Source: a virus
Strand: one strand, 5' to 3'
Virus record (IMG/VR): IMGVR_UViG_3300017763_000019
Span: 1-57,787 of that record
DNA: 57,787 nucleotides
Below, piece by piece: positions 7,930 to 40,211 of this stretch. The notes under the pieces are model-generated. The model made no database searches, was not told where the DNA came from, and saw nothing but the letters and a program-made list of their open reading frames with translations. The translations under genes and the position numbers were made by a program. Each line of letters begins with the position of its first letter. Position 1 is the first letter of the stretch.

Positions 7930-7960
7930 AAAAAAGGGGGTTTGACGATTCCCTTTTTTG
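7930..7960 (+). terminator. Rho-independent terminator after gp19
   Basis: AAAAAAGGG pairs with CCCTTTTTT around an inner loop containing TTTGACGA. The A-run/T-run symmetry means it could act in both directions. It ends the abundant tube transcript just before a new late promoter at 7964. Confidence 0.8.
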
Positions 7961-7963
7961 TTG

Positions 7964-7971
7964 TATAAATA
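7964..7971 (+). promoter_or_regulatory. T4-type late promoter for the second tube-like gene
   Basis: Exact TATAAATA immediately after the terminator and 23 bp before ATG 7994. Confidence 0.75.
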
Positions 7972-7993
7972 CTGTTATAGTGAGGTATTAAAA

Positions 7994-17344: not shown

Positions 17345-19732
17345 ATGCCTAAACAATTTTTAAATTATACCGACTTGACATTCAACGAGATTATTAGTCA
17401 GGTAAATGATAGATTAAGAGAAGATCCCGAAAAACGATTCGATAGTTTTTTAGAAAGTACAGTAGCACAAACAATGATTGACATTTTTGCTGCTTCTACA
17501 GACATGACAAATTACTATATCGAACGAAGAGCCGAGGAACAGTTCCTCGACACCGCAAGACTTAAAAGTTCAGTAATACAACTCTCCAAAATTTTGGGTT
17601 ATGTAGTACAAAGACCAGTACCTGGTCAGAGTTCAGTAAAAATTATATTGAAAGGACCCTTACCTACTAGTGTACTTGAGGGGCATACGGTAGACTTTAA
17701 GGCATTTGAAACAGCATTTGCAGTTGGTGACAAGAAATTTGTCCTAAAGAAAGATTATCAATACAAATTTACAGCAGCTGATATTGCCGGTGGTACAGCT
17801 AATAGTTTTAGAAAAGAAATATCCGTAAGTGTTCCAAATGGAACAGAACTATATTTAAACGAAGCCGGTTTAGTGCCTACTTCAGCCACATCACCCATTG
17901 AAATTATACAAGGTGAAATTAAAACTAAAACAATTGCTGGATCGAGTAATACACAAGTTGGTAATATTTTCCAAAAATATCTTATTGATGATGTAACATT
18001 TAGTAATGTTTTTGGTTCTGAGGATTTAAACTATGATGACACTACTAATTCAGCATCAAATTTAGCTGACGGTTTAACAAAAATTGCTATAACTCCAGCA
18101 TCAACACCGATCACTGCTGCGTTTATAGATGAATCCAGTTTGTATGAGATTGATAGAAGATCAATACTAACATCTGAAACAGTAATTGATCAGACCTCAG
18201 TACTTAATGATGTACCAAATGTTTGTAGTATTAGAACTACTGATAGTCAAGGTGTTGAAATACTATTTGGTGATAATAAAATCGCTAGTAAAGGTGTGGC
18301 TGGTAGTAATCAAAATCTTTATATACAATACTTTTCAACTAAAGGTTTGGAAGGAAATGAAACAGGTATATTAAGTAAGAAATTAACAACTTCAAATTCT
18401 TTTGAAACAAGTAATGGTGATTCAATAACACAAAACATAGAATGGCAATTCAACTCATCCATAATTGCTGGAGCTGATATGGAGTCTATCGATTCCATTA
18501 AGTTAAATGCACCAGGTTTGTTCTATTCATTGGATAGATTGGTTACATCTAAGGATTATACTACATTTTTAAAATCCTTAACCACACCAGTCAATATTAA
18601 GAACGCCTTAGCTTGGGGTGAACAAGAGGAACTTGAAAAAGACTCTACTCTTACAGCAATAACGGCATTGCTTAATGTTATCTTTTATAGTTGTGTTGGA
18701 CCATTGTATAATATTGGAGAGAGTAAAACAACACATACACATAAAGATTTACTGTCAAATACTGCTAGTGATGACGATAAAATAAGTACCTTCATTGAAG
18801 GTGTACAATATGATCTTGGTGGTAATACATTTGTGGAACAGAACTATTTTGATATTTTTATCAAAAATAATATGGTGGATTATTTACAAAACATAGAAAC
18901 TAGTACAGCACCGGGTGTTAGTATAGTAAACAACAAGATTAAAAAGAGATCACAAATAACTCTTCGTAATGCTTATGTGTCACCATTGTTACAACAGTTT
19001 AATTTGACAGGTGATGTGTATATTAAAAATCTCGTATCTGTTAATGAAATAGAAAGAAGGGTTAATAATGCAATTTATGAGTTCTTAGATGAAAAGTCTG
19101 ACTTTGCTCAGCCGTTATACTTATCAAACATAATTGAGTTAATTGAAAGCTTTCCAGAAGTGATTAATACAACACCTACATTCACACCGGTTGCAGGAAC
19201 AGGAACCCCACTAGTATCAGCATTAGAGTTAGATCCTGACATTACAGGTTATACTGCGGATGAGAAACAAATAATCGTTCCTCAATTTTCAAATTCGTTT
19301 CAAAACTTCATGCCAAACTACGGTTATGATAGTACGGAAAATTTTAACAGAAGTCTAATGACATCCGGACCTAGTGCCGCGTATGATATTAAGGTGTGGG
19401 AAAATTCAAATTATCTAAATAATCCACCGTACGGTGCTAATAGTACCGGAGTACCAAATACTGAATTAAAAGGGCATATTAGAGTTGCTAATATTTCTGA
19501 AAGAAATTTCTATGAAAAATTTGTAAAACATTTTTATGACGAAATTCAAGGTACAGCAGGGGGATCTTTTGGAAATTCTAATGATTTTAAATCATTGTTT
19601 AGTAGAGCAAATCAGGAAATGAAATATATGATTCGTAGTTCAATGAAAGATCAAAGTGGTAATATTGTTAATTATAGTTTCAAACATGAAATTGTACAAG
19701 TTATATCAAAATTAAATTTTAAATATCGTTGA
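17345..19732 (+). CDS. 6: baseplate wedge protein gp6 (baseplate J-like)
   Basis: A 795-residue protein (T4 gp6 is 660). The N-terminal region (LNYTDLTFNEIISQVNDRL, then QTMIDIFAASTDMTNYYIE) is the conserved gp6/J start, followed by the helix LDTARLKSSVIQLSKILGY and a beta domain. The C-terminal region is helix-rich with DEKSDFAQPLYLSNIIELI. gp6 dimers form the iris ring that triggers sheath contraction. Its position after gp25 and before the fibres matches T4-like and P2-like systems. Confidence 0.9.
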   Translation: MPKQFLNYTDLTFNEIISQVNDRLREDPEKRFDSFLESTVAQTMIDIFAASTDMTNYYIERRAEEQFLDTARLKSSVIQLSKILGYVVQRPVPGQSSVKIILKGPLPTSVLEGHTVDFKAFETAFAVGDKKFVLKKDYQYKFTAADIAGGTANSFRKEISVSVPNGTELYLNEAGLVPTSATSPIEIIQGEIKTKTIAGSSNTQVGNIFQKYLIDDVTFSNVFGSEDLNYDDTTNSASNLADGLTKIAITPASTPITAAFIDESSLYEIDRRSILTSETVIDQTSVLNDVPNVCSIRTTDSQGVEILFGDNKIASKGVAGSNQNLYIQYFSTKGLEGNETGILSKKLTTSNSFETSNGDSITQNIEWQFNSSIIAGADMESIDSIKLNAPGLFYSLDRLVTSKDYTTFLKSLTTPVNIKNALAWGEQEELEKDSTLTAITALLNVIFYSCVGPLYNIGESKTTHTHKDLLSNTASDDDKISTFIEGVQYDLGGNTFVEQNYFDIFIKNNMVDYLQNIETSTAPGVSIVNNKIKKRSQITLRNAYVSPLLQQFNLTGDVYIKNLVSVNEIERRVNNAIYEFLDEKSDFAQPLYLSNIIELIESFPEVINTTPTFTPVAGTGTPLVSALELDPDITGYTADEKQIIVPQFSNSFQNFMPNYGYDSTENFNRSLMTSGPSAAYDIKVWENSNYLNNPPYGANSTGVPNTELKGHIRVANISERNFYEKFVKHFYDEIQGTAGGSFGNSNDFKSLFSRANQEMKYMIRSSMKDQSGNIVNYSFKHEIVQVISKLNFKYR

Positions 19733-19740
19733 GGTAAATA

Positions 19741-22700
19741 ATGACAGCCACAAGTGAAAAAATATGGCATGGTTATCAAAGTAATCTTTGGAGTAATGGT
19801 AATAATTGGTCGACAAGTGCTACAATACCACAACCATCAGAAACAGCAATTTTTGATAGTACAGTATCTAACAATAATTGTTTATTAGATGTGGACACAT
19901 CAATAAATGGATTATCTGCTAATACTTATACTGGTTCATTAAATTTAAGTTCATACACTTTATCAGTTAAAACAGATGCTTATTTAGAACATTTAACAAA
20001 TTTGGAGACGAGTGCTAGTACACTTAAATTTACAGATACTGGTGTAGCAACTCTTTCGTCAAATACATTTTATAATCTCGAATTTGCAGGAAATACTGGT
20101 TTGAGTGGATCTAATACTTCAGCCGTAGCAACGGAAGTTTCAAACAACTTGACTGTTGGTGGAACTTTAAACATAGGTAATGATAACAATGGATCAGGTG
20201 TACATGATTTAAAACTACTATCGGGCTCAACAATGAACTCGAGTAATGGGATAATTACTGGTGATGGTAGATTGTATATAGTCGATGACGTTCTATTGGA
20301 TACGACAGGTACTTTGAGTAATTACGCTATTAATTATGTGTCTAGTGCTGCCAATGTTACTGTAATGTCAGGTGATTATAGTAATGTTAGTATAGTTCAA
20401 CTGATAAATGATGATTCCACACCACACATATTTGAATTTCAAGGTGGAATACATAAATATACATATTTAGATGCAGGTCTTGGTAACAATACTGACGTGG
20501 CCGGTACAATTATTTCTCTTTCAGCAAATAGTCCGTCTGTGTCAGCATCTACAATAGATGTACGGAACTACGCAGTAACGAACCATGTTCAGTTTTTCAT
20601 TGGTGATACAGATTTCCTTTGTAACTCATTACTTTCTACCTCTGGTACAAAAACAATTAGTGCTTCTGGTGGAAGAATTATACTTGGTGGAGAAGATACA
20701 ATTAATAATTTCCAAGGTATGGATAATGTTATTGAAACGGATTTAGTATTTGAAGATGGTCCTTATACCATTTATGGAACTACAAGTCCAGCCCCAATTA
20801 ACGAAGCTGTTATCAAAGCAAACAATATAACAGTTTCAGGATCATCAACTAACACACCAATTCTTAATTTCCTCCACGTTGACACTTTAAGTGCCGTGAA
20901 TGACATTATTATAAGTGGTGGACCATCAACATTTACAAATCTACAAGGAAGTAAACTTGCTGCAGGTAACAATATTAAATTTATTGGACAAGGAAATACT
21001 CCAACTACTAGATTAAATATGGATCCAACAAGTACATGGTATCAAGAAGCTGGTAATAAAATTTGGGCCTGGTACGCAGATATACAAAACGCAGTTGTGA
21101 GTGGTGGAACAACAGAAATCAGTGGTAATGTTACTGTTACAGCTACTGTTAGTACATTTGCCGGCTCTGGCAGCTCTGGTGATACTAATGGTACTGGATC
21201 TTCTGCTAGTTTCAATACACCAAGTGGTGTAGCGGTAGATTCTTCCGGTAATATATATGTGGCAGATCTTTTGAATCATAAAATACGTAAAATTACACCA
21301 GCAGGTGTAGTTAGTACAATAGCTGGAACTGGAAGTGTAGGTAGTAATGATGGGGCTGGTGCTTCCGCTAGTTTTAATGGGCCTAGGGGACTAGCCGTAG
21401 ATGCTTCCGGAAATGTGTATGTAGCAGATACATATAATAATAAAATACGTAAGATAACGTCAGCAGGAGTTGTGAGTACGTTTGCTGGAACAGGTAGTCA
21501 AGGTGATACTGATGGGGCTGGTGCTTCCGCTAGTTTTAATCAGCCTTATGGAGTTGCTGTAGATGGTGTAGGAAATGTTTACGTGGCAGATACGTATAAT
21601 CATAAAATACGTAAAATTACACCAAGTGGTGTAGTTAGTACATTAGCTGGAACTGGTAGTGCAGGAAGTAATGATGGTGCTGGATCTTCTGCAACTTTTA
21701 GTTATCCTTATGATGTTGCTGTTGATTCTTCGGGTAATATATATGTGGCAGATAGAAATAATTATAAAATTCGTAAAATTACACCAAGTGGTGTAGTTAG
21801 TACCGTAGCTGGAACAGGTAGTCAAGGTAGTATTAATGATCCTGCTACTTTTAATGCCCCTGAGGCTGTAGCGATAGATGCTTCCGGTAATATATATGTG
21901 GCAGATACTATTAATGCCAAAATACGTAAAATAACACCAGCGGGTGTAGTTAGTACATTTGTGGGAGATTTATCACTAGGTGATAAGGATGGTGCTGCTG
22001 AGAATGCTAGGTTTCATACACCAAGTGGTGTAGCGGTAGATGCTTCCGGTAATGTATATGTGGCAGATGCGGGTAATGATAAAATACGTAAGATAGTATT
22101 AACACAAACAATTTCATATCATGACGTTAGTACGTTTGCTGGAACAGGTGGTAATGGTGATACTAATGGTGCTGGCACTACTGCTAGTTTTAACGATCCT
22201 CGTGGTGTAACTTTAGATTCTTCAGGTAATGTTTACGTTGCCGATACTGACAATCATAGAATACGTAAAATAACACCACTTGGTGTAGTTAGTACATTTG
22301 CTGGTACTGGAGCTTTTGGTTCTGTTGATGGTGCTGGTGCTTCCGCTACTTTTTGGGATCCTTATGATGTTACTGTTGATTCTTCAGATAATATCTATGT
22401 AGCTGATATGAATAGTCGTAAAATTCGTAAGATTACACCATCAGGTGTAGTTAGTACCTTAGCTGGTAATGGATCTTATGGTGCAGGTGATGGTGCTGGT
22501 GCTTCGGCTAGTTTTAATCAACCTAAAGGATTAGCAGTAGATTCTTCAGATAATATTTATGTAGCAGATTATAATAATGATAAAATACGTAAAATAACTC
22601 CAGCAGGTGTGGTTAGTACCTTAGCTGGAACAGGTAGTCAAGGTAGTAATGATGGTGCTGGCTCTTCCGCTACGTTTTACGCCCCTCTTGATGTTGCTGT

Positions 22701-25700
22701 TGATTCTTCAAATAATATATATGTAGCAGATGCGGGTAATAACAAAATACGTAAGATTACACCACTTGGTGTGGTTAGTACCTTTGCCGGCAGTGGTGTT
22801 GCTGGTAGTACAAATGGTACTGGTACTTTAGCTACTTTTGATTCTCCCCAAGGTGTAGTGTTAGATTCATCGGATAATATTTATGTTGCATCGCTTGTCA
22901 ACGATTTAATACGTAAAATAACTCCAGCAGGTGTGGTTAGTACTTTTGCTGGTACTGGTGAATCCGCTCCCTATATAGGTGCTCCCGGTACTGGTGGTAC
23001 TGATGGTCCAGGGAATGTAGCTACTTTTTATAGACCCCAAGGATTAGCCGTAGATTCTTCAGATAATATTTATGTAGCGGATAAGAGTAATCATAAGATC
23101 CGTAAGATACAAAGTGCTGGAGAAGGTAGTACTATCTTTACTTCAGGTAATGCCGCTGCAACTGATAATTTGGGTGGTAATACTAATTGGTTTTTTGAAA
23201 ATGACCGTAACAATTTAACAGATGGTGCTATTGTTACTGTTGATCAAACAACTAAAAGATCTGGATCACCTATAACATTGAGTTTTACTGCAACAGACAC
23301 ACAAACTGGAATTACTTCATCTGATATAAGTATTGATTTAGATCCTTTAATTGGTGCGATTGTTCCAGGTTCGTTTAATTATGAGGTTGCCAACGAACTT
23401 ACCTTCAATGTTGAAATTTCAGCTGTAACTTCCTCAGCTACAAATATTGAAGTAACTACAATTAACGGTTCTCAACTAACAGCAACTGACACTTTCGGAC
23501 CTTATGATTACGATACAACCGCGGGTACAATAAGTTTTCAAAATTCGGTACCTAGTTATGGTATTAAAAATGATGAAATATCTGTTTTAATATTTGCTGA
23601 TGATATATTAGGTTTCCCATTGGGTGGTCCAGCTACTGTTTTTTATGGTGAATATAATGGACAGGTGGTAAGTTTTAATAATTTTTATATTGAGGACACT
23701 ACAAGAGCAGTTGTGGAGGCGATTTTACCCGCGACAACCGAAACCCTAAGTGGAAATTTATCAATTTCAGCCACAAATATTGAAGGAACTACTTTTACAG
23801 GTAACTCAAGTGCTGTGGGTAAGTACTATACCGTAGACTTAACTCCACCAGAAGTCACATTTACATATAGTCCTACAAATCAAATAGCATATAATTTTAT
23901 TAGTGTAAGTGCAAACGTGTCAGACAATGTTGGTTTCTCAACCTCGTTTGATTCAACAATAACGGATTATTATTTCATCGACTCAAACGGTGTGACATAT
24001 CCATCTCCTGCAACAAGTGTTTTAAGTACTGATAAAACCTTACTAACACAAACATTTGATTCATATGGGGACGTTAGTACAATAGCTGGAACTGGAACTA
24101 ATGGTAGTAATAATGGGGCTGGTGCTTCTGCTACTTTTCACCTGCCTGCTAATATTGCTGTAGATTCTTCAGGTAATGTGTATGTAGCAGATACATATAA
24201 TCATAAAATACGTAAGATTGATACTAACAATGTAGTTAGCACCTTTGCTGGAACTGGTAGTCAAGGTGATACTGATGGCGCTTCTGCTACTTTTTATGGA
24301 CCTCAGGATGTAGCGTTAGATTCTTCAGGTAATGTGTATGTAGCAGATACATATAATAATAAAATACGTAAGATAACGTCAACAGGAGTAGTTAGTACAT
24401 TGGCTGGAACAGGTAGTCAAGGTAGTAATGATGGGGTTGGTGCTTCTGCTACTTTTTACTATCCTTATGGAGTGGCTGTTGATTCTTCAGGTAATGTGTA
24501 TGTTGCGGATGGTGTTAATCGTAAAGTGCGTAAGATTACACCAAGTGGTGTAGTTAGTACATTAGCTGTGACCGGCAGTTCTGGATTTCCTCAGGATGTA
24601 GCTTTAGATTCTTCAGGAAATGTATATGTAGCAGATTATGATGGTAACAAAATACTTAAAATTACACCAAGTGGTGTAGTTAGTACATTAGCTGGAACAG
24701 GTAGTCAAGGTGAGGATAATGGTGTTGGAGCGTCTGCTACTTTTTATAGACCTAGAGGAGTAGCGGTAGATTCTTCTGGAAATGTGTATGTGGCAGATAC
24801 ATATAATCATGAAATACGTAAAATTACACCAAGTGGTGTAGTTAGTACATTTGTGGGTTCTGGAGCTATTGGTAGTAATAATGGTACAGGTTCTTCTGCT
24901 ACTTTTTATAGACCTGGAGGAGTAGCGGTGGATACTTCCGGCAATGTCTATGTGGCAGATACTAATAATCATAAAATACGTAAGATTCTAGTAACACCTG
25001 AAAAGGAAATGAATGCATTTGAATTTGAGATAAGTGCGTCAGGTACTTTATATTTAACACTTAAAGACACAGCAGGAAATATAACAACTTGTGCTGACGA
25101 TGGGTACATAACAGAACCAACAATTATTATTGGTACACCATCACCATCAAAGGCAACACCGATTGATACAAATATAGTAGTACCAATAAGTGCATTTGGA
25201 ACACTTACAGATAACAAAGATAATTACTATGCTAAACTTTTAAGTACTAATAATGACGAAGTTGAATTATTTTGGAGTGATGTTACTTCACCGGCAATAA
25301 ATGTAAATACATTTAACGTGATTCTATCAGGAAATGATAAGTTGGTTGGAAGCGTAGTTGTTTCTGGTGGAGTTTTAAAATTAGCTATGGTTAGTACTTT
25401 GGCTGGAACTGGAAGTCCTGGTAGTAATGATGGTGTTGGAACATTGGCTACTTTTTTAGTACCTAATGGAATAGTAGTGGATTCTTCCGGCAACGTCTAT
25501 GTAGCAGACGAAGCCAATAATAAAATTCGTAAGATTAATACAAATGGAATTGTTAGTACCTTTGCTAGTGTTACTTCACCACAAGGATTGATAACGGATT
25601 CTTCAGACAATCTCTATGTAACAGATTTTATTAATAATAAAATTCTAAAAATTACACCAAGTGGTGTAGTTAGTACCGTAGCTGGAACTGGGAGTCCTGG

Positions 25701-26322
25701 TTCTGTTAATGGGCCTGGTGCTTCTGCTAGTTTTGCAGGGCCAAATGATATAGCAATGGATTCTTTAGGTAATATTTACGTTGCTGATACATTTAATTGT
25801 AATATTCGTAAGATTGATACTAATAATGTAGTTAGCACCTTTGCTGGGACTGGTAGTGCAGGTAGTATTGATGGTACTGGCACTGCCGCAAGTTTTTCCT
25901 TTCCAGCAGGAGTAGATATTGATTCTTCAGACAATATCTATGTAGGAGATACTAGTAATCATAAAATACGTAAAATAACTCCAGCAGGAGTGGTTAGTAC
26001 TTTTGCGGGTACAGGTACTCCCATTCCCGGCGGAGTCGATGGACCTGGTGCTACTGCTAGTTTTGCTATACCTCATGGAGTAGATGTGGATTCATCGGAT
26101 AACATATATGTGGCAGATACAGGCAATTCTAAAATACGTAAAATAACACCAAGTGGTGTAGTTAGTACTTTTGCGGGCTCTTTTAGTACAGGAGACGCAG
26201 ATGGTCCAGTTAATGCAGCTCGTTTTAACTTTCCTAGAAAAGTTGTAGTAGATGCATCCGGTAATGTATATGTATCAGACACTAATAATAATAAAATACG
26301 TAAGATTGTTATTGATCCATAA
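19741..26322 (+). CDS. giant adhesin/fibre with four six-repeat NHL propeller blocks
   Basis: A 2193-residue protein. Residues 1-465 are beta-rich and Asn/Ser/Thr-rich (an NNWS-type start, likely beta-helix). NHL repeats follow in blocks of six at about 470-795, 796-1127, 1445-1750 and 1884-2193, separated by Ig-like beta segments. Each repeat is about 53 residues of the form VSTFAGTG...G..DGAG.SA.F..P.GVAVDSSGNVYVAD..N.KIRKITP.G. NHL repeats of six typically close into one beta-propeller, so four propellers are predicted. The gene sits after gp6, where fibre-connector genes lie, so a receptor-binding or glycan-binding role is likely. No enzymatic motif seen. Confidence 0.85.
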   Translation: MTATSEKIWHGYQSNLWSNGNNWSTSATIPQPSETAIFDSTVSNNNCLLDVDTSINGLSANTYTGSLNLSSYTLSVKTDAYLEHLTNLETSASTLKFTDTGVATLSSNTFYNLEFAGNTGLSGSNTSAVATEVSNNLTVGGTLNIGNDNNGSGVHDLKLLSGSTMNSSNGIITGDGRLYIVDDVLLDTTGTLSNYAINYVSSAANVTVMSGDYSNVSIVQLINDDSTPHIFEFQGGIHKYTYLDAGLGNNTDVAGTIISLSANSPSVSASTIDVRNYAVTNHVQFFIGDTDFLCNSLLSTSGTKTISASGGRIILGGEDTINNFQGMDNVIETDLVFEDGPYTIYGTTSPAPINEAVIKANNITVSGSSTNTPILNFLHVDTLSAVNDIIISGGPSTFTNLQGSKLAAGNNIKFIGQGNTPTTRLNMDPTSTWYQEAGNKIWAWYADIQNAVVSGGTTEISGNVTVTATVSTFAGSGSSGDTNGTGSSASFNTPSGVAVDSSGNIYVADLLNHKIRKITPAGVVSTIAGTGSVGSNDGAGASASFNGPRGLAVDASGNVYVADTYNNKIRKITSAGVVSTFAGTGSQGDTDGAGASASFNQPYGVAVDGVGNVYVADTYNHKIRKITPSGVVSTLAGTGSAGSNDGAGSSATFSYPYDVAVDSSGNIYVADRNNYKIRKITPSGVVSTVAGTGSQGSINDPATFNAPEAVAIDASGNIYVADTINAKIRKITPAGVVSTFVGDLSLGDKDGAAENARFHTPSGVAVDASGNVYVADAGNDKIRKIVLTQTISYHDVSTFAGTGGNGDTNGAGTTASFNDPRGVTLDSSGNVYVADTDNHRIRKITPLGVVSTFAGTGAFGSVDGAGASATFWDPYDVTVDSSDNIYVADMNSRKIRKITPSGVVSTLAGNGSYGAGDGAGASASFNQPKGLAVDSSDNIYVADYNNDKIRKITPAGVVSTLAGTGSQGSNDGAGSSATFYAPLDVAVDSSNNIYVADAGNNKIRKITPLGVVSTFAGSGVAGSTNGTGTLATFDSPQGVVLDSSDNIYVASLVNDLIRKITPAGVVSTFAGTGESAPYIGAPGTGGTDGPGNVATFYRPQGLAVDSSDNIYVADKSNHKIRKIQSAGEGSTIFTSGNAAATDNLGGNTNWFFENDRNNLTDGAIVTVDQTTKRSGSPITLSFTATDTQTGITSSDISIDLDPLIGAIVPGSFNYEVANELTFNVEISAVTSSATNIEVTTINGSQLTATDTFGPYDYDTTAGTISFQNSVPSYGIKNDEISVLIFADDILGFPLGGPATVFYGEYNGQVVSFNNFYIEDTTRAVVEAILPATTETLSGNLSISATNIEGTTFTGNSSAVGKYYTVDLTPPEVTFTYSPTNQIAYNFISVSANVSDNVGFSTSFDSTITDYYFIDSNGVTYPSPATSVLSTDKTLLTQTFDSYGDVSTIAGTGTNGSNNGAGASATFHLPANIAVDSSGNVYVADTYNHKIRKIDTNNVVSTFAGTGSQGDTDGASATFYGPQDVALDSSGNVYVADTYNNKIRKITSTGVVSTLAGTGSQGSNDGVGASATFYYPYGVAVDSSGNVYVADGVNRKVRKITPSGVVSTLAVTGSSGFPQDVALDSSGNVYVADYDGNKILKITPSGVVSTLAGTGSQGEDNGVGASATFYRPRGVAVDSSGNVYVADTYNHEIRKITPSGVVSTFVGSGAIGSNNGTGSSATFYRPGGVAVDTSGNVYVADTNNHKIRKILVTPEKEMNAFEFEISASGTLYLTLKDTAGNITTCADDGYITEPTIIIGTPSPSKATPIDTNIVVPISAFGTLTDNKDNYYAKLLSTNNDEVELFWSDVTSPAINVNTFNVILSGNDKLVGSVVVSGGVLKLAMVSTLAGTGSPGSNDGVGTLATFLVPNGIVVDSSGNVYVADEANNKIRKINTNGIVSTFASVTSPQGLITDSSDNLYVTDFINNKILKITPSGVVSTVAGTGSPGSVNGPGASASFAGPNDIAMDSLGNIYVADTFNCNIRKIDTNNVVSTFAGTGSAGSIDGTGTAASFSFPAGVDIDSSDNIYVGDTSNHKIRKITPAGVVSTFAGTGTPIPGGVDGPGATASFAIPHGVDVDSSDNIYVADTGNSKIRKITPSGVVSTFAGSFSTGDADGPVNAARFNFPRKVVVDASGNVYVSDTNNNKIRKIVIDP
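21148..23121 (+). repeat. NHL repeat blocks 1 and 2 (six plus six units)
   Basis: Twelve units of about 159 bp encode NHL repeats. Units 1-6 end in a divergent linker (VLTQTISYHD), after which unit 7 starts at 22126, so the array divides into two groups of six. Many units share near-identical DNA around GGTAATATATATGTGGCAGA, giving potential for recombination. Confidence 0.85.
24073..24990 (+). repeat. NHL repeat block 3 (six units)
   Basis: Six NHL units; the fourth is shortened (about 41 residues), having lost the G..DGxGxSATF loop. It lies between two Ig-like segments of the giant fibre. Confidence 0.83.
25390..26319 (+). repeat. NHL repeat block 4 (six units) at the C-terminus
   Basis: Six NHL units; the second is short (about 38 residues). 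The protein ends directly after the last unit, so this propeller would be the exposed tip. Confidence 0.83.
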
Positions 26323-26325
26323 ACT

Positions 26326-26333
26326 TATAAATA
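26326..26333 (+). promoter_or_regulatory. T4-type late promoter upstream of the gpI/gp7-like gene
   Basis: Exact TATAAATA three bases after the stop of the giant fibre gene, 23 bp before ATG 26356. Confidence 0.75.
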
Positions 26334-26355
26334 TTAAAAACAGGATTAAATTGAT

Positions 26356-28839
26356 ATGAGTCTTTCAGCATTTTCACCACCATATATAATTAGTGTAACA
26401 AATACAGGTTATACATATGGTAATACACCACCGATAATTACTGTTGACAGTTCCGTACCATCAACAAAATATAGTAACAGTAATATAACACAATATTTTA
26501 CTATTACATATGAGGCGGGTATTGCACCATCTGGACTCGTATTAAGCGCTGGTTCACCTGTATCGACTAGTGCAGTGACAGTAGTTGATTCCACAACACT
26601 GATGCTCGAAGTATCAGTTAGTGCGTCTGGAAGTATTGGTATATCCGCAACTGACATTGGTGGACTAACGTCAACAGAAACAGTTTCAGACTATATAATT
26701 GATACTTCAGTAACAGGGCCACTTGGTAGTTCATCAGATGTATACGGACCAGGTATTAAATACACTCTTCATAATCCAAGTGATAGATTTGTTATAACCA
26801 AAGATGGAAACAATACAGGTTCAGTTCATGTCACAGTAACAGATGATATAGAAATTGTTTATGAAAGTGGAAATCCTTCAAATTGGATTGGGTTAGTTCC
26901 GGGTAGTGTTGGTGAAATTGATAACACATCATGGGTACAGACGACAAGTGCGGTTGTAGAATTTGATGTTATAAACATTTCTGCAACAGGTGATGTAATT
27001 GTTTCAGCAACAGATTTTTGGGGTGGTAATACCAACACAGAAAGTGATACAAGATGGATGGTAGGTTGTTCGGACAATGACAGACTGATAAATCTGGTCA
27101 ACTTTTTACCACAACACTTATACGATTCAGAAACATTTGATTTTACAAAACTTTTTGAGAACTTTCTAAACACTATGTATGAGGATAGAGACCATCCTTG
27201 TAATTATGGTATACTTAAAAAAATAGAACAGATAGGTGACTTACATGATCCACAATTAATGGATTCTGAATACTTACAATTCTACGCAAATTTTTTAGGT
27301 TATGATTTGACAATAAATAGGGGTGAAATTGGAAACATAACAAATGAAGTGACTGATGACGGTACATATATAGATGATGAAGAATCAAAAAAGTATTTAA
27401 GATTTGTAGTTGAAAATTTACCTAACTGGTATAAAATTAAATCAACTAGAAACGCAGTAAAAATTATGTTATTTTCATTTGGTATAATTGGGGATTTATT
27501 TACACTTTTTTCAAACGATTATGATAAAAATTGGATAAGTGACAGGGAAGACGATAGATCATCAATTGGAACCCAAATACCAAGTGGTTATTATCCCACT
27601 CCTCATTTTCAACTAGCTGTAAACCTACGAGAAACATCACCCAAGTGGTTACAGAACCTTGGATCAATACTAAACGCTATTGATGGTATAAGACCCATCA
27701 ATACGGTATTTGAGCGCTTTGGTGGTTATTATGATATGGACCCAGCAATTATAAATGTAGTTGCAGGTAGTCCACATATAACACAGAGTGTATATATTGA
27801 TTGGACAAACTCTCCTGCGACGCTTACACCTACACCTACATACACTGTTAGTACATTTGCGGGAACCGGTAGTCAAGGAAGTAATGATGGCGCAGGTTCT
27901 TCTGCTACATTTAATGAACCTAGAGGAGTAGCGGTAGATGCTTCCGGAAATGTGTATGTGGCCGATGAAGACAACAATAGAATCCGTAAAATAACTCCGG
28001 CAGGTGTGGTTAGTACATTTGCGGGTTCTTCTTATGGTGATGTAGATGCAAATGGAACTGCAGCAAAGCTTGGCCAACCTAGAGGAGTAGCGTTAGATGC
28101 TTCCGGAAATGTATATGTGGCAGATGCTGGCAATAATAAAATCCGTAGGATTACACCAGCTGGTGACGTTAGTACATTTGCTGGAACCGGTGCTTATGGT
28201 GATACAGATGGTGCAGGAAATGTTGCTACTTTTAAAGCTCCTTATGGAGTAACCTTAGATGCTTCCGGTAATGTGTATGTTGCAGATACTTATAATCATA
28301 AAATTCGTAAGATAACTCCCTCAGGTGTAGTTAGTACAATTGCTGGAAGTGGTACTCAAGGAGATGCTAATGGTACTGGAACTGCTGCTAGTTTTAATCA
28401 GCCTCATGGTGTTGCTGTAGATGCTTCCGGTAATGTGTATGTTACAGATACGGGTAATCATAAAATTCGTAAGATTACACCAGCAGGTGTAGTTAGTACA
28501 TTTGCTGGAAGTGGTACTCAAGGAAGTAATGATGGTGTAAGTTCCTCTGCTACTTTTTTTAATCCTAGAGGGGTGTCTATTGATTCTTCAGGTATTGTGT
28601 ATGTTGCAGATCCGTATAACAAAAAAATCCGTAAGATTATACCAGCGGGTGACGTTAGTACAATTGTATTGACAGGTTTTAACTATTCAGGTTTCGACCA
28701 ACCTGGTGACTTAGTAGTAGATTCATCTAATGATATTTATGTGGTAGATACCGCTAATGATAGAATTAATAAATTTACACAGGGTGTGGTTAATACTAAT
28801 ATGTATAGTAACTCAGTTGATGGTAACTTAGACTATTAG
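26356..28839 (+). CDS. tail protein: Ig-like N-terminus, gpI/gp7-like core, NHL propeller
   Basis: An 827-residue three-part protein. Residues about 1-235 are Ig-like beta segments like the linkers of the upstream fibre. Residues about 238-462 (NLVNFLPQHLYDSETFDF, YANFLGYDL, LPNWYKIKSTRNAVKIML, INTVFERFGGYY) read like the tail protein I / wedge-connector family that links baseplate to fibre. Residues about 498-811 are six NHL repeats, the sixth short. It probably anchors fibres to gp6 and itself ends in a propeller. The fusion of a baseplate-connector module to an NHL propeller is unusual. Confidence 0.78.
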   Translation: MSLSAFSPPYIISVTNTGYTYGNTPPIITVDSSVPSTKYSNSNITQYFTITYEAGIAPSGLVLSAGSPVSTSAVTVVDSTTLMLEVSVSASGSIGISATDIGGLTSTETVSDYIIDTSVTGPLGSSSDVYGPGIKYTLHNPSDRFVITKDGNNTGSVHVTVTDDIEIVYESGNPSNWIGLVPGSVGEIDNTSWVQTTSAVVEFDVINISATGDVIVSATDFWGGNTNTESDTRWMVGCSDNDRLINLVNFLPQHLYDSETFDFTKLFENFLNTMYEDRDHPCNYGILKKIEQIGDLHDPQLMDSEYLQFYANFLGYDLTINRGEIGNITNEVTDDGTYIDDEESKKYLRFVVENLPNWYKIKSTRNAVKIMLFSFGIIGDLFTLFSNDYDKNWISDREDDRSSIGTQIPSGYYPTPHFQLAVNLRETSPKWLQNLGSILNAIDGIRPINTVFERFGGYYDMDPAIINVVAGSPHITQSVYIDWTNSPATLTPTPTYTVSTFAGTGSQGSNDGAGSSATFNEPRGVAVDASGNVYVADEDNNRIRKITPAGVVSTFAGSSYGDVDANGTAAKLGQPRGVALDASGNVYVADAGNNKIRRITPAGDVSTFAGTGAYGDTDGAGNVATFKAPYGVTLDASGNVYVADTYNHKIRKITPSGVVSTIAGSGTQGDANGTGTAASFNQPHGVAVDASGNVYVTDTGNHKIRKITPAGVVSTFAGSGTQGSNDGVSSSATFFNPRGVSIDSSGIVYVADPYNKKIRKIIPAGDVSTIVLTGFNYSGFDQPGDLVVDSSNDIYVVDTANDRINKFTQGVVNTNMYSNSVDGNLDY
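27847..28788 (+). repeat. NHL repeat block of six in the gpI-like tail protein
   Basis: Six units with the same consensus as in the upstream giant fibre (VSTFAGTG...YVAD..N.KIRKITP.G), starting after a short Thr/Pro hinge. Unit two is diverged and unit six is truncated (about 45 residues). Confidence 0.85.
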
Positions 28840-28894: not shown

Positions 28895-31867
28895 ATGTCA
28901 CTTACAATCGTAACAAGTGGTGGATTGTCCGCAGTTAATATATCAGATGGGTATCCAGTATTTTCAGTTAAATATTTTTTACCAATCTATGATCAGAGTA
29001 TAGATCCAGTAATACATAGCACAGATAATAGTATTGTAACAAGTGCGGTACCATTATCGGGTGCTAGTTTAGTTTCAACAACACATAATACACTCACCGG
29101 AGAAAAGATTTGGAACTTTGACACTAGTACATCGGCTTATATAATATCAGATGATAATTTTCATATGTACAAAGATACGGGTGGTTCATTTTCGTTAAAT
29201 ACTTACACTAATAGTACAATGTCAAACAGTACCACTGTAAATTTACTTAGTGGTGCTGATGGTATTCATCCTTTATCAGATATTGTTTCTGGTAATGAAA
29301 CACCAACAATTACATCAGCTAATGCAGTTGATGGTTCAAATTTTATTTGGTCAACAACACCTAACGCAACGGTGTCAGCCAATAATAATAATGTTCTTGC
29401 ACTAAATTACCAAAATCTTTGGGATGGTGTATCTTATACACCTTCAACTAACGACTTAGATCCATTATCTGCTACAGCCGCATTGTTTCACTGTACAATA
29501 CCTAATAGTTCGGGCGACTTCAAATTTAATAAAGTAGCATTGTATGTACAAAAAGTATTACCAACTGGAGCTTCAGATACTAACGAACCCCCTATACTAT
29601 TTGGTGTGTCTGTTTTAAACAACACAATAGAAGTGACGAATGATGTTGATGGAGTACAAAACTTTACATTAGATGTTAAACTACAATTTAGTGTGGACAA
29701 CTTAACAACAAATACAGTATATTATGATAGTGACTATTGGTATAAACTACCCCCAGCTGTTTCATCACCATATGGATTGTTTGCAGTAGGGGATGTAGCA
29801 ATTGGTACATCCGCTAATAATGGTTCATGGAATCCTAATGCTAAACTACATTTAACTGACAGTGAAAAGCCTCAGTTAATTTTGAGTAAGACATATCATA
29901 GTGATCAGGCCGTATTTGAAATGCAGGACAATGGTGGTTTACGCATTACCACGTCAGCCGGTGGACCTTTGTTGTCTGTTGGATTAGAAACATCTGCAAT
30001 TGGTAATTATTCAATAGCGTCTGGACAAGAAACTTCAGCATCAGGTACTCATTCATTCGCGAGTGGTTATCAAACATTAGCCGGTGGTGATCAATCATTT
30101 ACTTTTGGTACATTTACTAGTGCTGATGGGCGTAGAGCTGTTTCATTTGGTAACACTACTAGAGCATCAGGTGCAAATTCAATAGCGTCTGGATATCAAT
30201 CAGAAGCACATGGTGAAGCATCATATGCATTGGGTTATCAAACAACTGCTAGGGGTTATTATTCAACAGCGTTAGGTCAAAAAACAAGTGCTGTTAATGT
30301 TGGTTGCGTAGCAATGGGTAGAGAAACATCAGCTATTGGTAATTATTCAACAGCGTTGGGAAAAACAACACAAGCGAATGGAGACCATTCGCTTGCCGGT
30401 GGATTTGAAACCTGTGCTGTAGGTGATGAATCCTTTACTTTTGGTAAATCTACTACTGCTTTTGGCCATAGAGCTACTGCTTTTGGTAACACTACTAGAG
30501 CATATGGTGTAAATTCACTTACTCAGGGTATTAATACTTATGCTTATGCTCCACAATCAGTAGCATTTGGTGATGACGTTAGAGTTGGTATAGAGACTGT
30601 GGGGGAAGCGTTTAATACTCTTGCAATAGGTAAAAATAACTGGGCTAGAGGCAATCAAACAATTATGGGTGGAAGTAATAACAATACTACTGATACTTCT
30701 CACAATTCATTAATAGCTGGTGAAGATAATAGAATTGGTTCTGATGGCACTAATAAAAATGCTTTTATTGTTGGTCAAGACAATAAAGTGTTTGCTAGTC
30801 AAACTGCAATAATGGGTAGTGAAAACTTAGCTTATGGCCAAAACTCTTTTGTTGGTGGTTTTGGATCCCAAACAGGACTAATTGGTTCTGCTAATTCGAC
30901 TGCTACTGGTGTTAATAGTATTGCATTTGGTTCAAATGTAAATGCTTATGGTGCTCAATCATTTGTATTTGGTAAAAGTTCTCTTGCATCAAATGATGAA
31001 TCAATAGCATTTGGTTTGAACAATCGATCTGAAGGAATTCAATCAGCAGTTTTTGGCTCATCTGTAACTGCAGAAGGTGAGCAGTCTTTTGCAATTGGTA
31101 GTGGTTCTACTGCAAAAGGTAATAAGTCCTTTGCTGGTGGTTCTGGTTCAATCTCTAATGGTAATATGTCTTTTGCATTTGGCAATCAATGTGTTGCAAC
31201 TGGAATAGGCTCACAATCTTTTGGTGATGGAACAATAACGACAGGTAATTATTCACAAGCGTTTGGTGAAAACAATCAAGCTTTAGCAGGACATGCTCAA
31301 GCATTTGGAGAAAACACTATTGCATCCGCTAACTATTCCCATACTTTTGGAAAGGATGTTAGTGCGAGTAATAGAGCAGAATTCGCATATGGTACAGGCA
31401 AATTTACAGGAGGTACAGGTTCTGGTCATGCACAAGTTTCAAGAGTGACAATGTCTGATGAACTAGCTACTGCAGGTAGTTCTTTCACTTTAACCATAAA
31501 TAACATAACTGCTAATGGTTTTAAACCCTTGGCTGGCACGGTTGGAATGGCAAAAATCGATCTTATTATAGTTGACCAATTCGGTCTTATTGGTGAGACT
31601 TTTACTGCTTCAAATGCATACAGATGCGCTACCGACGGTACAGTCTCTCTCGATCTGAGTGAACAGCGTAACCCAGCATCGGGTGGATTTGGTCATTCTA
31701 GAACCCTTGGACCCTCAACTCCATCTATCAACGTAGCGGTGGCGGAGACTAAATGGCAAGTCCAGAGTAATAGTTTAGTTTTTATAGTCAAAACAAATAC
31801 AGCAGCTGGCCAGTATTCTCGTGCTTTTGGGGAAGCTAAGTTTATCCAACTTGCTCATCATACATAA
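28895..31867 (+). CDS. tail fibre with YadA/Hia-like head repeats
   Basis: A 990-residue fibre. Residues 1-340 are beta-rich and attach the fibre. Residues about 365-845 are some 30 repeats of about 14 residues with the pattern xAxGxxSxAxGxxTxA (for example GNYSTALGKTTQANGDHS), the left-handed beta-roll of trimeric autotransporter heads. The C-terminal 140 residues form a separate globular beta domain with FGHSRTLGP. It is probably trimeric and a receptor-binding fibre. It is the last gene of the late tail operon and is followed by a strong terminator. Confidence 0.85.
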   Translation: MSLTIVTSGGLSAVNISDGYPVFSVKYFLPIYDQSIDPVIHSTDNSIVTSAVPLSGASLVSTTHNTLTGEKIWNFDTSTSAYIISDDNFHMYKDTGGSFSLNTYTNSTMSNSTTVNLLSGADGIHPLSDIVSGNETPTITSANAVDGSNFIWSTTPNATVSANNNNVLALNYQNLWDGVSYTPSTNDLDPLSATAALFHCTIPNSSGDFKFNKVALYVQKVLPTGASDTNEPPILFGVSVLNNTIEVTNDVDGVQNFTLDVKLQFSVDNLTTNTVYYDSDYWYKLPPAVSSPYGLFAVGDVAIGTSANNGSWNPNAKLHLTDSEKPQLILSKTYHSDQAVFEMQDNGGLRITTSAGGPLLSVGLETSAIGNYSIASGQETSASGTHSFASGYQTLAGGDQSFTFGTFTSADGRRAVSFGNTTRASGANSIASGYQSEAHGEASYALGYQTTARGYYSTALGQKTSAVNVGCVAMGRETSAIGNYSTALGKTTQANGDHSLAGGFETCAVGDESFTFGKSTTAFGHRATAFGNTTRAYGVNSLTQGINTYAYAPQSVAFGDDVRVGIETVGEAFNTLAIGKNNWARGNQTIMGGSNNNTTDTSHNSLIAGEDNRIGSDGTNKNAFIVGQDNKVFASQTAIMGSENLAYGQNSFVGGFGSQTGLIGSANSTATGVNSIAFGSNVNAYGAQSFVFGKSSLASNDESIAFGLNNRSEGIQSAVFGSSVTAEGEQSFAIGSGSTAKGNKSFAGGSGSISNGNMSFAFGNQCVATGIGSQSFGDGTITTGNYSQAFGENNQALAGHAQAFGENTIASANYSHTFGKDVSASNRAEFAYGTGKFTGGTGSGHAQVSRVTMSDELATAGSSFTLTINNITANGFKPLAGTVGMAKIDLIIVDQFGLIGETFTASNAYRCATDGTVSLDLSEQRNPASGGFGHSRTLGPSTPSINVAVAETKWQVQSNSLVFIVKTNTAAGQYSRAFGEAKFIQLAHHT
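29995..31420 (+). repeat. YadA-like head repeats (about 42 bp units)
   Basis: Degenerate roughly 42-bp units encoding 14-residue beta-roll coils. Typical coding pieces are TCAATAGCGTCTGGA and TTTGGTAACACTACTAGAGC, the latter occurring twice (about 30147 and 30483). Confidence 0.75.
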
Positions 31868-32575: not shown

Positions 32576-33233
32576 TATATCGCTTACCACAACTTGTATG
32601 GATAGAAATGATTTTTTAGAAGAATCATTAGAAACGTGGGTTCAATTTGATTTTGGTGAGATTGTTATAATTGATTGGTCATCTAAAGAAAGTCTTAGGG
32701 ATATTGTAAGTAAATATCCTAATAAAAAAATTAAATTGGTTGAAGTTAAGAATGAAGATTATTATCATTATTCACGTGCAAGAAACTTCAAAGTTAAAAT
32801 GACAGAATTAGATTATGTTATGTCGATTGATTGTGATGTTAAATTGAAGAAGAATCTTTTTGATAACATAGAACTTAAAAAAGATACTTTCTATACAACA
32901 GTAATTGATAATCCAATTACTGGAATTATTGGTACTTCTATAATACCAAGAGAAATGTATTTTAGTGTTAATGGTTGTAATGAGAAAATGTCTTGTTGGG
33001 GTTCTGAAGACATAGATTTGTATAAACGATTAATTGGAAATGGTTTTAATAGGAAAATGCTAAATCCATTAGAAGTGTCACATATTGAACATGGTGATGA
33101 ATTAAGAATAAAAAATACTAAGAGTAAAGATAAATGGAGATCAAATTCTAAAAATAACTTAATTGCTGAATTATATGAAAATGATACAGATCTAAGTCAA
33201 ATTATAGAAGACTATGAGGTTACTAGAATATGA
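32562..33233 (+). CDS. GT-A glycosyltransferase
   Basis: Uses ATG 32562 inside the preceding gene's end; the ATG at 32523 would add 13 unlike residues. The N-terminal half has the GT-2 pattern: ISLTTTCMDRNDFLEESL, then EIVIIDWSS, then AMSIDCDVK-type DxD (VMSIDCDVKL, residues about 83-92). The C-terminal half contains MSCWGSEDIDLYKRLIGNGF, the ED motif of galactosyltransferase-like C-terminal domains. It would transfer a sugar from a nucleotide sugar with a divalent metal. The acceptor is unknown. It overlaps the next gene by 4 bp. Confidence 0.86.
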   Translation: MLLNNISLTTTCMDRNDFLEESLETWVQFDFGEIVIIDWSSKESLRDIVSKYPNKKIKLVEVKNEDYYHYSRARNFKVKMTELDYVMSIDCDVKLKKNLFDNIELKKDTFYTTVIDNPITGIIGTSIIPREMYFSVNGCNEKMSCWGSEDIDLYKRLIGNGFNRKMLNPLEVSHIEHGDELRIKNTKSKDKWRSNSKNNLIAELYENDTDLSQIIEDYEVTRI

Positions 33234-34435
33234 AATTATCTATTTTAATTTGTACATTAGAAAGTCGTGTAGAACAACTACAAATAATTCTAAAAGTATT
33301 ACAAAGGCAATCTAATAAAGATGTTGAAATTCTTATTGAAAGTGATAATGGAGAATTATCTACCGGTTCTAAAAGACAAAAATTATTAGAACGTGCAATA
33401 GGTGATTACATTTGCTATGTGGATGATGATGATATGGTTTCCAATAATTATGTGGATTCTATATTGAATGCAATTTCATACAAACCAGATTGTGTAGGTA
33501 TTATAGTTGAAAAACGTAAAGATGATTTACCTTATCGAAAAGTAGTTAAAACAACTCAAACATTGAAAAATCAGTGGATTTGGAATTTTAACGAAAAGAC
33601 AAATACTCAATCAATGATTCCTGACCATTTAACACCAGTTAAGCGTGAAATTGCACTTAAAGTTGGATTTAAGGATATTAGTAAGGGTGAAGATACAGTT
33701 TATTCCATTGGAATTATAGAGTATTTAAAAACAGAAATCTTTATTGATACGCCAATCTATTTGTATGATCTCAAAACTACCAAGAAATTATATGAAAATG
33801 TAGAAAACAATCCAAAAGTTACTGCAATTACAATTACTAAAGATAGAGTTGATTTTGTAAAACAAAGCATTGGTTACTTCAAAGATCAAACACATAAAAA
33901 TACAGAAATGATTATTGTTTGTCATGGTAATTCTGAAACTAAAAAAGAATTGAGTGCCTTTGTTAAATCTGAAACAAATATTAAATTTATTGAAGTTAAA
34001 GATGAAGTAACTAAAGGTTATATGATTAATATAGCAATTAAAGAGTCTAACAGTGACTATTGCATACAATGGGATGATGATGACTACCATTCACCAAAAA
34101 GAATTGAACAGCAATTAATACCAATACAATATAATGTTGCAGATGTAACAACACTAGCAACATTCAAAATGGATAATGGTGAACTTGTAAAAGATGTTCT
34201 TTGGTGTGATGGATTAGATGGAACTATGTTGTGGAAAAACACTGGTGTACTTTCACCAGAAGTTACACGCGGACATGATACTGCATTTATGCAAGTTTTA
34301 AAATCTAAATATAGAACATTAAAAATTTATGATGATTATTCCACCTATACATATTTTATTCACGATATGCAAATGTATAGCAAAAAAGAAATATTTAATA
34401 CTGTTACTGCACCATACAAAGTTGTTAAAAAATAA
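33230..34435 (+). CDS. two-domain family 2 glycosyltransferase
   Basis: 401 residues with two successive GT-A domains. Domain 1 (about 1-180) starts LSILICTLESRVEQL and has the DxD region CYVDDDDMVS at about 63-72. Domain 2 (about 190-400) starts VTAITITKDRVDFV and has CIQWDDDDYHSP at about 282-293, with a later LWCDGLDGTMLWKN. Tandem GT2 domains are typical of enzymes that build a disaccharide repeat. ATGA-type overlap with the upstream glycosyltransferase. A promoter-like sequence follows at 34441. Confidence 0.87.
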   Translation: MKLSILICTLESRVEQLQIILKVLQRQSNKDVEILIESDNGELSTGSKRQKLLERAIGDYICYVDDDDMVSNNYVDSILNAISYKPDCVGIIVEKRKDDLPYRKVVKTTQTLKNQWIWNFNEKTNTQSMIPDHLTPVKREIALKVGFKDISKGEDTVYSIGIIEYLKTEIFIDTPIYLYDLKTTKKLYENVENNPKVTAITITKDRVDFVKQSIGYFKDQTHKNTEMIIVCHGNSETKKELSAFVKSETNIKFIEVKDEVTKGYMINIAIKESNSDYCIQWDDDDYHSPKRIEQQLIPIQYNVADVTTLATFKMDNGELVKDVLWCDGLDGTMLWKNTGVLSPEVTRGHDTAFMQVLKSKYRTLKIYDDYSTYTYFIHDMQMYSKKEIFNTVTAPYKVVKK

Positions 34436-34440
34436 AAAAA

Positions 34441-34469
34441 ATGACATTAAATATAAAAATATATATTAT
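34441..34469 (+). promoter_or_regulatory. sigma70-like promoter upstream of the sqdB-like gene
   Basis: ATGACA, 17-bp spacer, TATTAT, about 33 bp before ATG 34502. The -35 has one mismatch. The region is very AT-rich, which raises the chance of a false match. Confidence 0.55.
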
Positions 34470-34501
34470 ATTTTATATAGAAATATTTGTAAGGAGTGTA
34501 A

Positions 34502-35644
34502 ATGAGTAAAATTATGACAAAGAAAATATTAGTATTGGGATCTAAAGGCTACATTGGACAGTCTTTATTACACCATTTAGTAAATAATGGTCATGAAGTA
34601 ATTGGAATTGATAGCGGAATCAAAGAAAAGCAAATGGAAAATTTGGGTGTAAAATCTCTTTTTGAACCTATTTCTTCAAACCATACTAAAATTTCAAAAT
34701 TACAAAAATGGTTACAAACTCCATTTCCTCTAGATGTTCGAGATTATGAAGAATTAAGAAAAGTCGTGAAGGTTTTTAAACCAGATGTTATTGTTCATTT
34801 GGCAGAACAACCATCAGCACCTTATTCAGAAATTGACATGGAAAAATCACATGAAACATTAATGAACAATGTGGAGACAACTTTTAATGTTGCTAGAGTT
34901 GTAAAAGAAGTCGTTCCTGAATGCCATATCGTAAAACTTGGTACAATGGGAGAATATGGTAATCCAAATATTGATATAGAAGAAGGATATTTGGATGTGG
35001 AGCATAATGGAAGAAAGGAAACTTTTCTTTATCCACGTTCTGCAAACTCTCTTTATCATACCAGTAAAATAATGGACACTGATTTATTATCATATTATTG
35101 TAGAGTCCATCGTTTGCGAGTTAGTGACATAATGCAAGGCCCAGTATATGGGTTTGATACAGACACTGCTAGAACTTCCTTTTATTATGATGATGTTTTT
35201 GGAACTGTTTTAAATAGATTTTTGGTGCAGGCTATTGTTGGTGAGCCATTGAGTATATATGGATCTGGAGGACAAACTAAAGGATTTATAAATTTGAAAG
35301 ACGTAATGAAATGTGTGGAACTCATTATTAACAATCCAGCAGAAAAAGGCAAGCTAGAGATTTATAATCAATATACTGAAGTATATAGTGTGTTGGAATT
35401 GGCTGAAATGGTAAAAACTGCTGGTGATGAAATTGGATTAGATGTGAAAATTAATAACATTGATAATCCAAGAAAAGAACCCGAAGATCATTATTTTAAT
35501 CCTAAGAATGAAAAACTATTAGAATTGGGATTACAGCCTACAAAACTTAGCAAGGATATTATTCAAGATATGCTTGTGGAAATTGGAAAACATAAACTTA
35601 ATATTGATAAAAGTAAATTTTTACCTAATCATTCTTGGAAGTGA
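34502..35644 (+). CDS. sqdB: UDP-sulfoquinovose synthase-like epimerase/dehydratase
   Basis: A 380-residue extended short-chain dehydrogenase. The NAD-binding GSKGYIG is at residues 13-19. KLGTMGEYGNPNIDIEEG (145-162) and the later GPVYGFDTDTAR, DVFGTVLNRFLVQA and YGSGGQTKGFINL are hallmarks of SqdB/SQD1, which makes UDP-sulfoquinovose from UDP-glucose and sulfite. The catalytic T148, Y185 and K189 have the same spacing as the T-Y-K triad of plant SQD1. ATG 34502 has an AAGGAG site. In this phage it probably supplies a sulfosugar, or a related acidic hexose, to nearby glycosyltransferases. A different nucleotide-sugar substrate cannot be excluded. Confidence 0.87.
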   Translation: MSKIMTKKILVLGSKGYIGQSLLHHLVNNGHEVIGIDSGIKEKQMENLGVKSLFEPISSNHTKISKLQKWLQTPFPLDVRDYEELRKVVKVFKPDVIVHLAEQPSAPYSEIDMEKSHETLMNNVETTFNVARVVKEVVPECHIVKLGTMGEYGNPNIDIEEGYLDVEHNGRKETFLYPRSANSLYHTSKIMDTDLLSYYCRVHRLRVSDIMQGPVYGFDTDTARTSFYYDDVFGTVLNRFLVQAIVGEPLSIYGSGGQTKGFINLKDVMKCVELIINNPAEKGKLEIYNQYTEVYSVLELAEMVKTAGDEIGLDVKINNIDNPRKEPEDHYFNPKNEKLLELGLQPTKLSKDIIQDMLVEIGKHKLNIDKSKFLPNHSWK

Positions 35645-35695
35645 TGGTATTATATAGTTATGAAAAAGTATTAGTAGTTGTAGATATTCGTGGTA

Positions 35696-35724
35696 TTGAC
35701 AAATAAATTAAATTAATATATATT
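35696..35724 (+). promoter_or_regulatory. sigma70-like promoter P2 of the sugar island
   Basis: TTGACA at 35696-35701, 17-bp spacer, TATATT at 35719-35724. Identical over 30 bases to the promoter at 31923, including the whole spacer. It lies 31 bp before ATG 35755. Confidence 0.82.
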
Positions 35725-35754
35725 TATGTTAAAGATTGAAAATGGAATTGAAAA

Positions 35755-36549
35755 ATGATTAAGATAATTTCAGGTTGGTCCAATCCGGGTGGTTCAACAA
35801 CAGCGTTTATAAACTTATGTAATCTATTTAATGAGAACGGGTATGATTGTACATTCTACGGACCACATGATTGGCACTTAGATAAGTGTAAGAGTGGAAA
35901 TTTTCAGGATATCAATTTGAAAAAGAAGGATGTACTTATATATCACTTTTTAGATATCTTTAAAACAAGACCTCCTGTAAAGAAATTTGTACTAAGTTTA
36001 CACGAAAAGGACTTGTACAATCTGAATGTTAAAGAACATAATATGTTTGATACAATACACTTCCTAAACGACAAACACATTGAATGGCATGGTGGTAAAG
36101 ACCAATTTAAAAACTACTTTATAAGTCCTAACGTAGTAGATAATCTAATGCCTTCACCAAAAAAAGACTTGAAAATTGGTGGAGTAATTGGTACGGTTGA
36201 TTATAACAAACAGACACATAAATCTATTGAACGAGCTTTGAATGATGGTTGTGAACAGGTTCATGTCTATGGTAATATAACAGACCAAACCTACTATCAG
36301 AAATATGTTAGTAAGTATCATATGTATGAGAATGTTCATTTTTCCGGATTTGCTGAGGACAAACAAGCTATGTATGATAGTGTGACAGATGTTTATCAGG
36401 ATTCGCTAAGTGAAACTTGGGGATATATTAAAGTGGAATGTGATTTAACTAATACTAACTACCACGGAAATGATTCTATAAAGGATAATTTTGTTAGTAT
36501 GGGTAGTAAAGGAATACTTGAGAAATGGGTAAAGGAACTTGAATTATGA
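35755..36549 (+). CDS. GT-B-type glycosyltransferase
   Basis: 264 residues. The start MIKIISGWSNPGGSTTAFINLC has the glycine-rich first loop of GT-B enzymes. The second half has IGGVIGTVDYNKQTHKSIERAL, EQVHVYGNITD and NVHFSGFAEDKQAMY, resembling the nucleotide-sugar domain of GT4-like proteins, with an E-rich segment (SLSETWGYIKVECD) near the end. It is shorter than usual GT4 enzymes (about 350-400). It overlaps the next gene by 4 bp. Confidence 0.75.
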   Translation: MIKIISGWSNPGGSTTAFINLCNLFNENGYDCTFYGPHDWHLDKCKSGNFQDINLKKKDVLIYHFLDIFKTRPPVKKFVLSLHEKDLYNLNVKEHNMFDTIHFLNDKHIEWHGGKDQFKNYFISPNVVDNLMPSPKKDLKIGGVIGTVDYNKQTHKSIERALNDGCEQVHVYGNITDQTYYQKYVSKYHMYENVHFSGFAEDKQAMYDSVTDVYQDSLSETWGYIKVECDLTNTNYHGNDSIKDNFVSMGSKGILEKWVKELEL

Positions 36550-40151: not shown

Positions 40152-40211
40152 TGTTGACGAGTAGTAATGATATTAATATATTTACTGGTATTAAAAAGTT
40201 GGAGTTACAAA

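Follow-up and report, generated by a model that had tools for sequence, protein, structure and literature searches.

Beta-propellers built of NHL repeats have rarely been reported in phage tail genes, and the literature searched gave one precedent, a lone tail fibre domain of six repeats: the tail fibre of Nitratiruptor phage NrS-2 (NRS2_61) carries six NHL repeats, three of which are missing from that of NrS-3 (NRS3_61) (PMC9723563). Crystal structures of TRIM NHL domains place the start and the end of the domain both in the sixth sheet (PMC9634614), and two further reports describe propellers as arising through amplification of single blades (PMC9218822, PMC6805158). Viral NHL proteins are also listed in BFVD, among them 'NHL protein [Myoviridae sp. 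ctIty1]', and one NHL block of the present locus, used as a tblastn query, matched 7 of 50,697 phage records. The stretch analysed here, called the window throughout, is a virus record of 57,787 b, linear and possibly a fragment. Two adjacent genes on its + strand, ORF A (19741..26322, 2193 aa) and ORF B (26356..28839, 827 aa), carry five blocks of six NHL units, three of which were modelled as closed rings.

ORF A opens with a beta-rich-looking domain (aa 1-469), followed back to back by block 1 (21148..22101, + strand, aa 470-787) and block 2 (22126..23112, +, aa 796-1124), each consisting of six blades modelled as one closed propeller. The Ig-like-looking linker 1 (23113..24072, +, aa 1125-1444) leads to block 3 (24073..24990, +, aa 1445-1750), and linker 2 (24991..25389, +, aa 1751-1883), which starts with the Ig-like-looking segment FEFEISASGTLYLTLKDTAGN, leads to block 4 (25390..26319, +, aa 1884-2193) at the C-terminal end of the protein; sequence alignment and a unit HMM give blocks 3 and 4 six blades each. 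In ORF B, an N-terminal part of about 497 aa without known family precedes block 5 (27847..28785, +, aa 498-810), whose six blades were modelled as one closed propeller. The initial annotation had counted by hand 24 NHL repeats in A and six in B, and this count was right: scanning for the core motif gave A 24 units, with P-cores from aa 494 to aa 2165, and B six (aa 522-783), with a period of mostly 54 aa in both, and the separately iterated unit HMM returned 12+6+6 for A and 6 for B. The Pfam NHL model was matched at E=2e-170 by A and 3.5e-47 by B, and both belong to the NHL repeat family PF01436, with 545.5 and 156.6 bits, respectively, against a curated Pfam cut-off of 20. A six-frame Pfam NHL search recovered 29 of the 30 units with zero internal stops, and 28 of these 29 individual matches exceeded the curated cut-off. 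In units A3_4, A4_2 and B_6, where the spacing is 39-46 aa, the d-a loop is mostly missing, but the strand motifs are retained. Since the longest exact repeat across the region is 51 nt, repeat collapse in the assembly is unlikely.

It had also been proposed that linkers divide the repeats of A into four blocks of six. The grouping in sixes stands, but no linker domain separates blocks 1 and 2: real linkers occur in A only at the boundaries between blocks 2 and 3 (about 320 aa) and between blocks 3 and 4 (about 133 aa), where they do set the block limits, whereas the limit between blocks 1 and 2 appears as an insertion of roughly five residues (aa 789-793) in KIRKIVLTQTISYHDVST (aa 781-798), beyond the normal length of a c-d turn. 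The segment of A comprising aa 468-1170 was modelled with AlphaFold (AF2), using an alignment of related arrays as input; the model is regular, with four strands per blade and a pLDDT of 86.6, and its pTM of 0.53 is as expected of two rigid bodies. The pLDDT dips at model residues 322-326, which correspond to aa 789-793 of A and lie exactly at the block boundary, and alignments to PDB entries span either model residues 1-326 or 337-659, so a 6+6 split is predicted at this point. In VIA-align, the first ring superimposed on SOQ1 (7djm) with Z 45.2 and 1.4 Å over 306 residues (model 9-323) and the second ring on 7djl with Z 44.8 and 1.6 Å over 309 residues (model 337-663); NHLRC2, TRIM71 and the designed six-blade Pizza6 likewise align to the model. 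The ring of B has a pLDDT of mostly 92-99 and aligns with Z 42.2 and 1.8 Å over 298 residues. Altogether, solved NHL propellers align end to end with blocks 1, 2 and 5 at Z of about 36-45 and rmsd of 1.3-2.1 Å. The suggestion that six repeats make one closed propeller is thus borne out by AlphaFold modelling and PDB superposition for these three blocks, in whose models six four-stranded blades close as a ring, and blocks 3 and 4, assigned by sequence alignment, would be expected to fold in the same way. Judging by strand order and full-length superposition, blade six of each block should be completed by the opening strand (VST[FIL]AG), paired with the three strands at the other end of the block, as in the TRIM NHL structures. 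Each block would then open on the ring's fourth strand and close on three strands of blade six, so that a '1+3' ring snaps shut, and such closure would make six the closure number.

The number six is not peculiar to this phage. At 79 loci with close homologues, counting only blocks not cut by a contig end, the unit HMM detected a total of 106 bacterial blocks, of which 84 had six units, 12 had twelve and one had 24. Because 97 of the 106 are multiples of six, the closure number of six goes with this NHL subfamily rather than with this phage in particular, and the closer viral homologues follow it as well (6; 6+6+6; 12; 30 units). Three of the viral contigs with such arrays (L017, L019 and L021, with 6+6+6, 30 and 6+6+6 units) resemble giant-virus material; collagen-like GTQ/GPT repeats were noticed, by impression only, on L017 and L019. 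The more distant viral homologues form a seven-unit subfamily (L051-L092), which is common in viral contigs and stands apart at about 28-33% identity; its members mostly have seven units per block and are often arranged as tandem gene pairs (e.g. L057, L062, L063, L075 and L083). A T4-like contig (L010 / L012), whose terminase (31-43%) and sheath (32-34%) are related to those of the window, encodes, in one ORF of 1767 aa, at least 17 NHL units that do not clearly group in sixes. On another phage-like contig, a stand-alone NHL protein of six blades (L009:5461-6591) lies beside a terminase-like gene; its N terminus resembles a lipobox (LLITSCQN), and it could be a lysogenic-conversion lipoprotein; with such a putative lipoprotein at hand, an NHL domain alone does not imply a fibre.

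The way in which the five blocks arose was addressed by a register test, in which blade k of one block was compared with blade k of the others by DNA identity over the 27-residue core. Same-position and other-position identities across the blocks of the window were 0.687 and 0.686 (z 0.2), and the earlier proposal that the blocks were duplicated and moved as units found no in-register excess to sustain it. The test has power, since it detected block duplication at comparable or greater divergence in four bacterial proteins, L105, L116, L117 and L134 (from Chitinophaga, a Bacteroidetes MAG, Singulisphaera and Mucilaginibacter), with z of 4.6, 7.1, 4.2 and 4.3, respectively. Several other multi-block proteins, including those of L017 and L021, likewise gave no block-duplication signal in this test. 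When longer units were compared, a weak position signal emerged (p 0.079 for protein, 0.050 for codons) beside a clearer within-block signal (p 0.014 for protein, 0.0003 for codons), and the blade tree contained 10 cherries, three joining blades of the same position, two joining blades of the same block and five neither. Blade-level amplification or homogenization, acting individually and within blocks, fits these data better than whole-block copying, and the blades of A and B would have been multiplied or homogenized in this manner.

The alternative history, in which complete blocks of six blades were copied and travelled between A and B as cassettes and blade-level conversion later erased their register, seems to us less likely, though it has several observations in its favour. 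Every block is a complete ring, blade-6 units pair in the tree, the longer codon alignment has the weak position signal just mentioned, and the four bacterial proteins demonstrate that whole blocks can be duplicated. The surroundings of the blocks point the same way. By eye, the flanks ...AVVSGGTTEISGNVTVTA before block 1 and STIFTSGNAAATDNLGGNTNWFF after block 2 look like one interrupted domain, as do TPPEVTFTYSP... before block 3 and the segment that follows it, so that a domain started ahead of block 3 may be completed by the first part of linker 2. Read in this way, the flanking motifs suggest that blocks 1-2 and block 3 are inserted cassettes. Against this stand the core register test and the joined flanks, which returned no relatives with an empty site for blocks 1-2 (Pfam, phages and viral contigs), block 3 (Pfam and phages) or the ring of B (Pfam). 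Linker 1, without a Pfam family of its own, aligns at 30% identity (E about 0.01) with the N-terminal part of B along 209 aa.

The genes around A and B belong to a T4-like contractile-tail module, with tail sheath, sheath stabiliser, large terminase, tube, gp5-like hub, gp25 and gp6-like wedge, and the terminase shares 40% identity with its counterpart in Synechococcus phage S-RIM2. No close relative of this phage turned up in the collections searched. A T4 gp6-like baseplate wedge subunit (17345..19732, +; phrog_219, 2.7e-30) ends 8 nt upstream of A, and a YadA-head (trimeric beta-roll) fibre-like protein (28895..31867, +) lies directly downstream of B, giving the order gp25-gp6-A-B-YadA fibre, in which the gp6-like gene, A, B and the YadA-head gene are closely packed on the same strand. 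The YadA-head protein matches trimeric autotransporter adhesin models (Ata, EmaA) and is apparently a phage-borne trimeric fibre. Elsewhere in the window, two adjacent genes (7327-7896 and 7958-8650) both match tail tube families (phrog_45 and phrog_4542), and a run of sugar genes (33230-42640) encodes glycosyltransferases of families 2 and 1, NAD-dependent epimerases, Polysacc_synt_2 and RmlD-like proteins, as well as a UDP-GlcNAc 2-epimerase (2.8e-90).

The baseplate-connector domain that the initial annotation saw in B found no confirmation in sequence or fold. The N-terminal part of B, modelled with a pLDDT of mostly 25-55, had no match in Pfam at E<=5, no relevant match in PHROGs and no relatives by tblastn in phages, viral contigs or named records. 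The order gp25-gp6-A-B recalls W-J-I of P2, and region 340-480 of B resembles P2 gpI, by eye only; hhalign of B, as a single-sequence query, to nine P2 gpI proteins gave a probability of 0.3% and E 0.18, and a gpI profile run against all ORFs of the window gave nothing significant.

Taken together, A and B are probably proteins of the tail, or associated with the baseplate, in a T4-like phage with a contractile tail, and would carry five six-bladed NHL beta-propellers as display modules; their putative location in the virion is deduced purely from gene order. A would be a large fibre or baseplate-proximal protein carrying four rings, and B would anchor one further ring near the baseplate via its N-terminal part. 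The rings most likely serve as putative multivalent binding or adhesion modules that turn a variable loop face to the host at the point of surface contact. In propellers, the d-a and b-c loops share one face, and it is here, in the b-c loop and in the last part of the d-a loop, that the 30 blades vary most (mean entropy about 2.2 bits), whereas the a-b and c-d loops have mean entropies of 0.64 and 1.02 bits. The bacterial and other viral NHL homologues vary at the same loop positions, however. Loop-face variability was therefore rejected as evidence of selection on receptor use or host range, being compatible with a binding face but no evidence of one.

A different role is conceivable, though we doubt it: the propellers could be passive spacers or scaffold that lengthen and stiffen the fibre, leaving binding to other domains such as the N-terminal domain of A or the YadA-head protein. 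The high similarity of the repeats within one chain (about 60% protein identity) and the alternation of rings with Ig-like-looking linkers would agree with such a role, as would the homologues on contigs with collagen-like sequences, where, as on L017, propellers alternate with a repeated domain of about 157 aa. Yet block 4 is terminal in A and block 5 in B, a place that suits display, and the loop faces of the blades differ while the core is conserved. The notion that the NHL propellers act as enzymes, such as lyases or hydrolases, can practically be discounted, as the weak cross-matches to Vgb_lyase, SGL and phytase-like models stem from shared propeller repeats, NCBIfam VgbA reached 39 bits against a cut-off of 600, and the NHL domains that give the best structural alignments are not counted among enzymes. 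The NCBIfam model ScyF (NF035926, scytonemin biosynthesis PEP-CTERM protein) was set aside as repeat-driven, together with Pfam matches to US22, SBBP, SGL and lyase families: A scores 382.8 against 350 only by summing seven repeat stretches, B scores 117, and A ends in a propeller (KIRKIVIDP) without a PEP-CTERM tail. Within the favoured reading of the rings as display modules, a more specific and decidedly speculative version would have the phage present its closed NHL rings as adhesion cassettes that can be exchanged for one another, with a two-ring cassette inserted towards the end of the N-terminal domain in A, a third ring that interrupts an Ig-like domain, one ring fused to a baseplate wedge protein, and binding faces diversified blade by blade.

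The pattern of five rings holds up and is neat, yet for the most part unremarkable. Five rings with clean borders offer separately expressible modules with which host recognition by NHL rings of phages could be probed, and the window adds a phage case consistent with the origin of propellers by single-blade amplification, as described in the reports cited above (PMC9218822, PMC6805158). Close counterparts in organization are bacterial multi-propeller NHL proteins (e.g. L099, L100, L105 and L116), whose linker-separated blocks of exactly six units are 53-61% identical to those of the window; some of them bear clear in-register block duplication, unlike the window. Among phages, the NrS-2 and NrS-3 tail fibres (NRS2_61 and NRS3_61; PMC9723563) also possess an NHL domain, but only one, and these phages are siphoviral and temperate. 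Gene 442 of Salicola phage SCTP-2 (ASV44457.1; L013) likewise encodes a very large protein, in which NHL-like units form two blocks of six, but it is about 32% identical in sequence, is annotated as hypothetical and has no reported Pfam NHL match. The teneurin or teneurin-like NHL domain (TEN_NHL, PF25021; PDB 9ifo) gives a strong Pfam match and aligns to the second ring with Z 41.6; only the NHL part matches, with no other teneurin family found by Pfam in A or B, and teneurin membership was rejected. The lumenal domain of SOQ1, NHLRC2, TRIM71/LIN-41, Thin, PknD and Pizza6 share with the window the repeat family, the six blades and the closed ring (Z 34-45 to the model), yet each of these proteins, cellular or designed, has a single such ring, whereas the window holds five rings in two adjacent phage genes.
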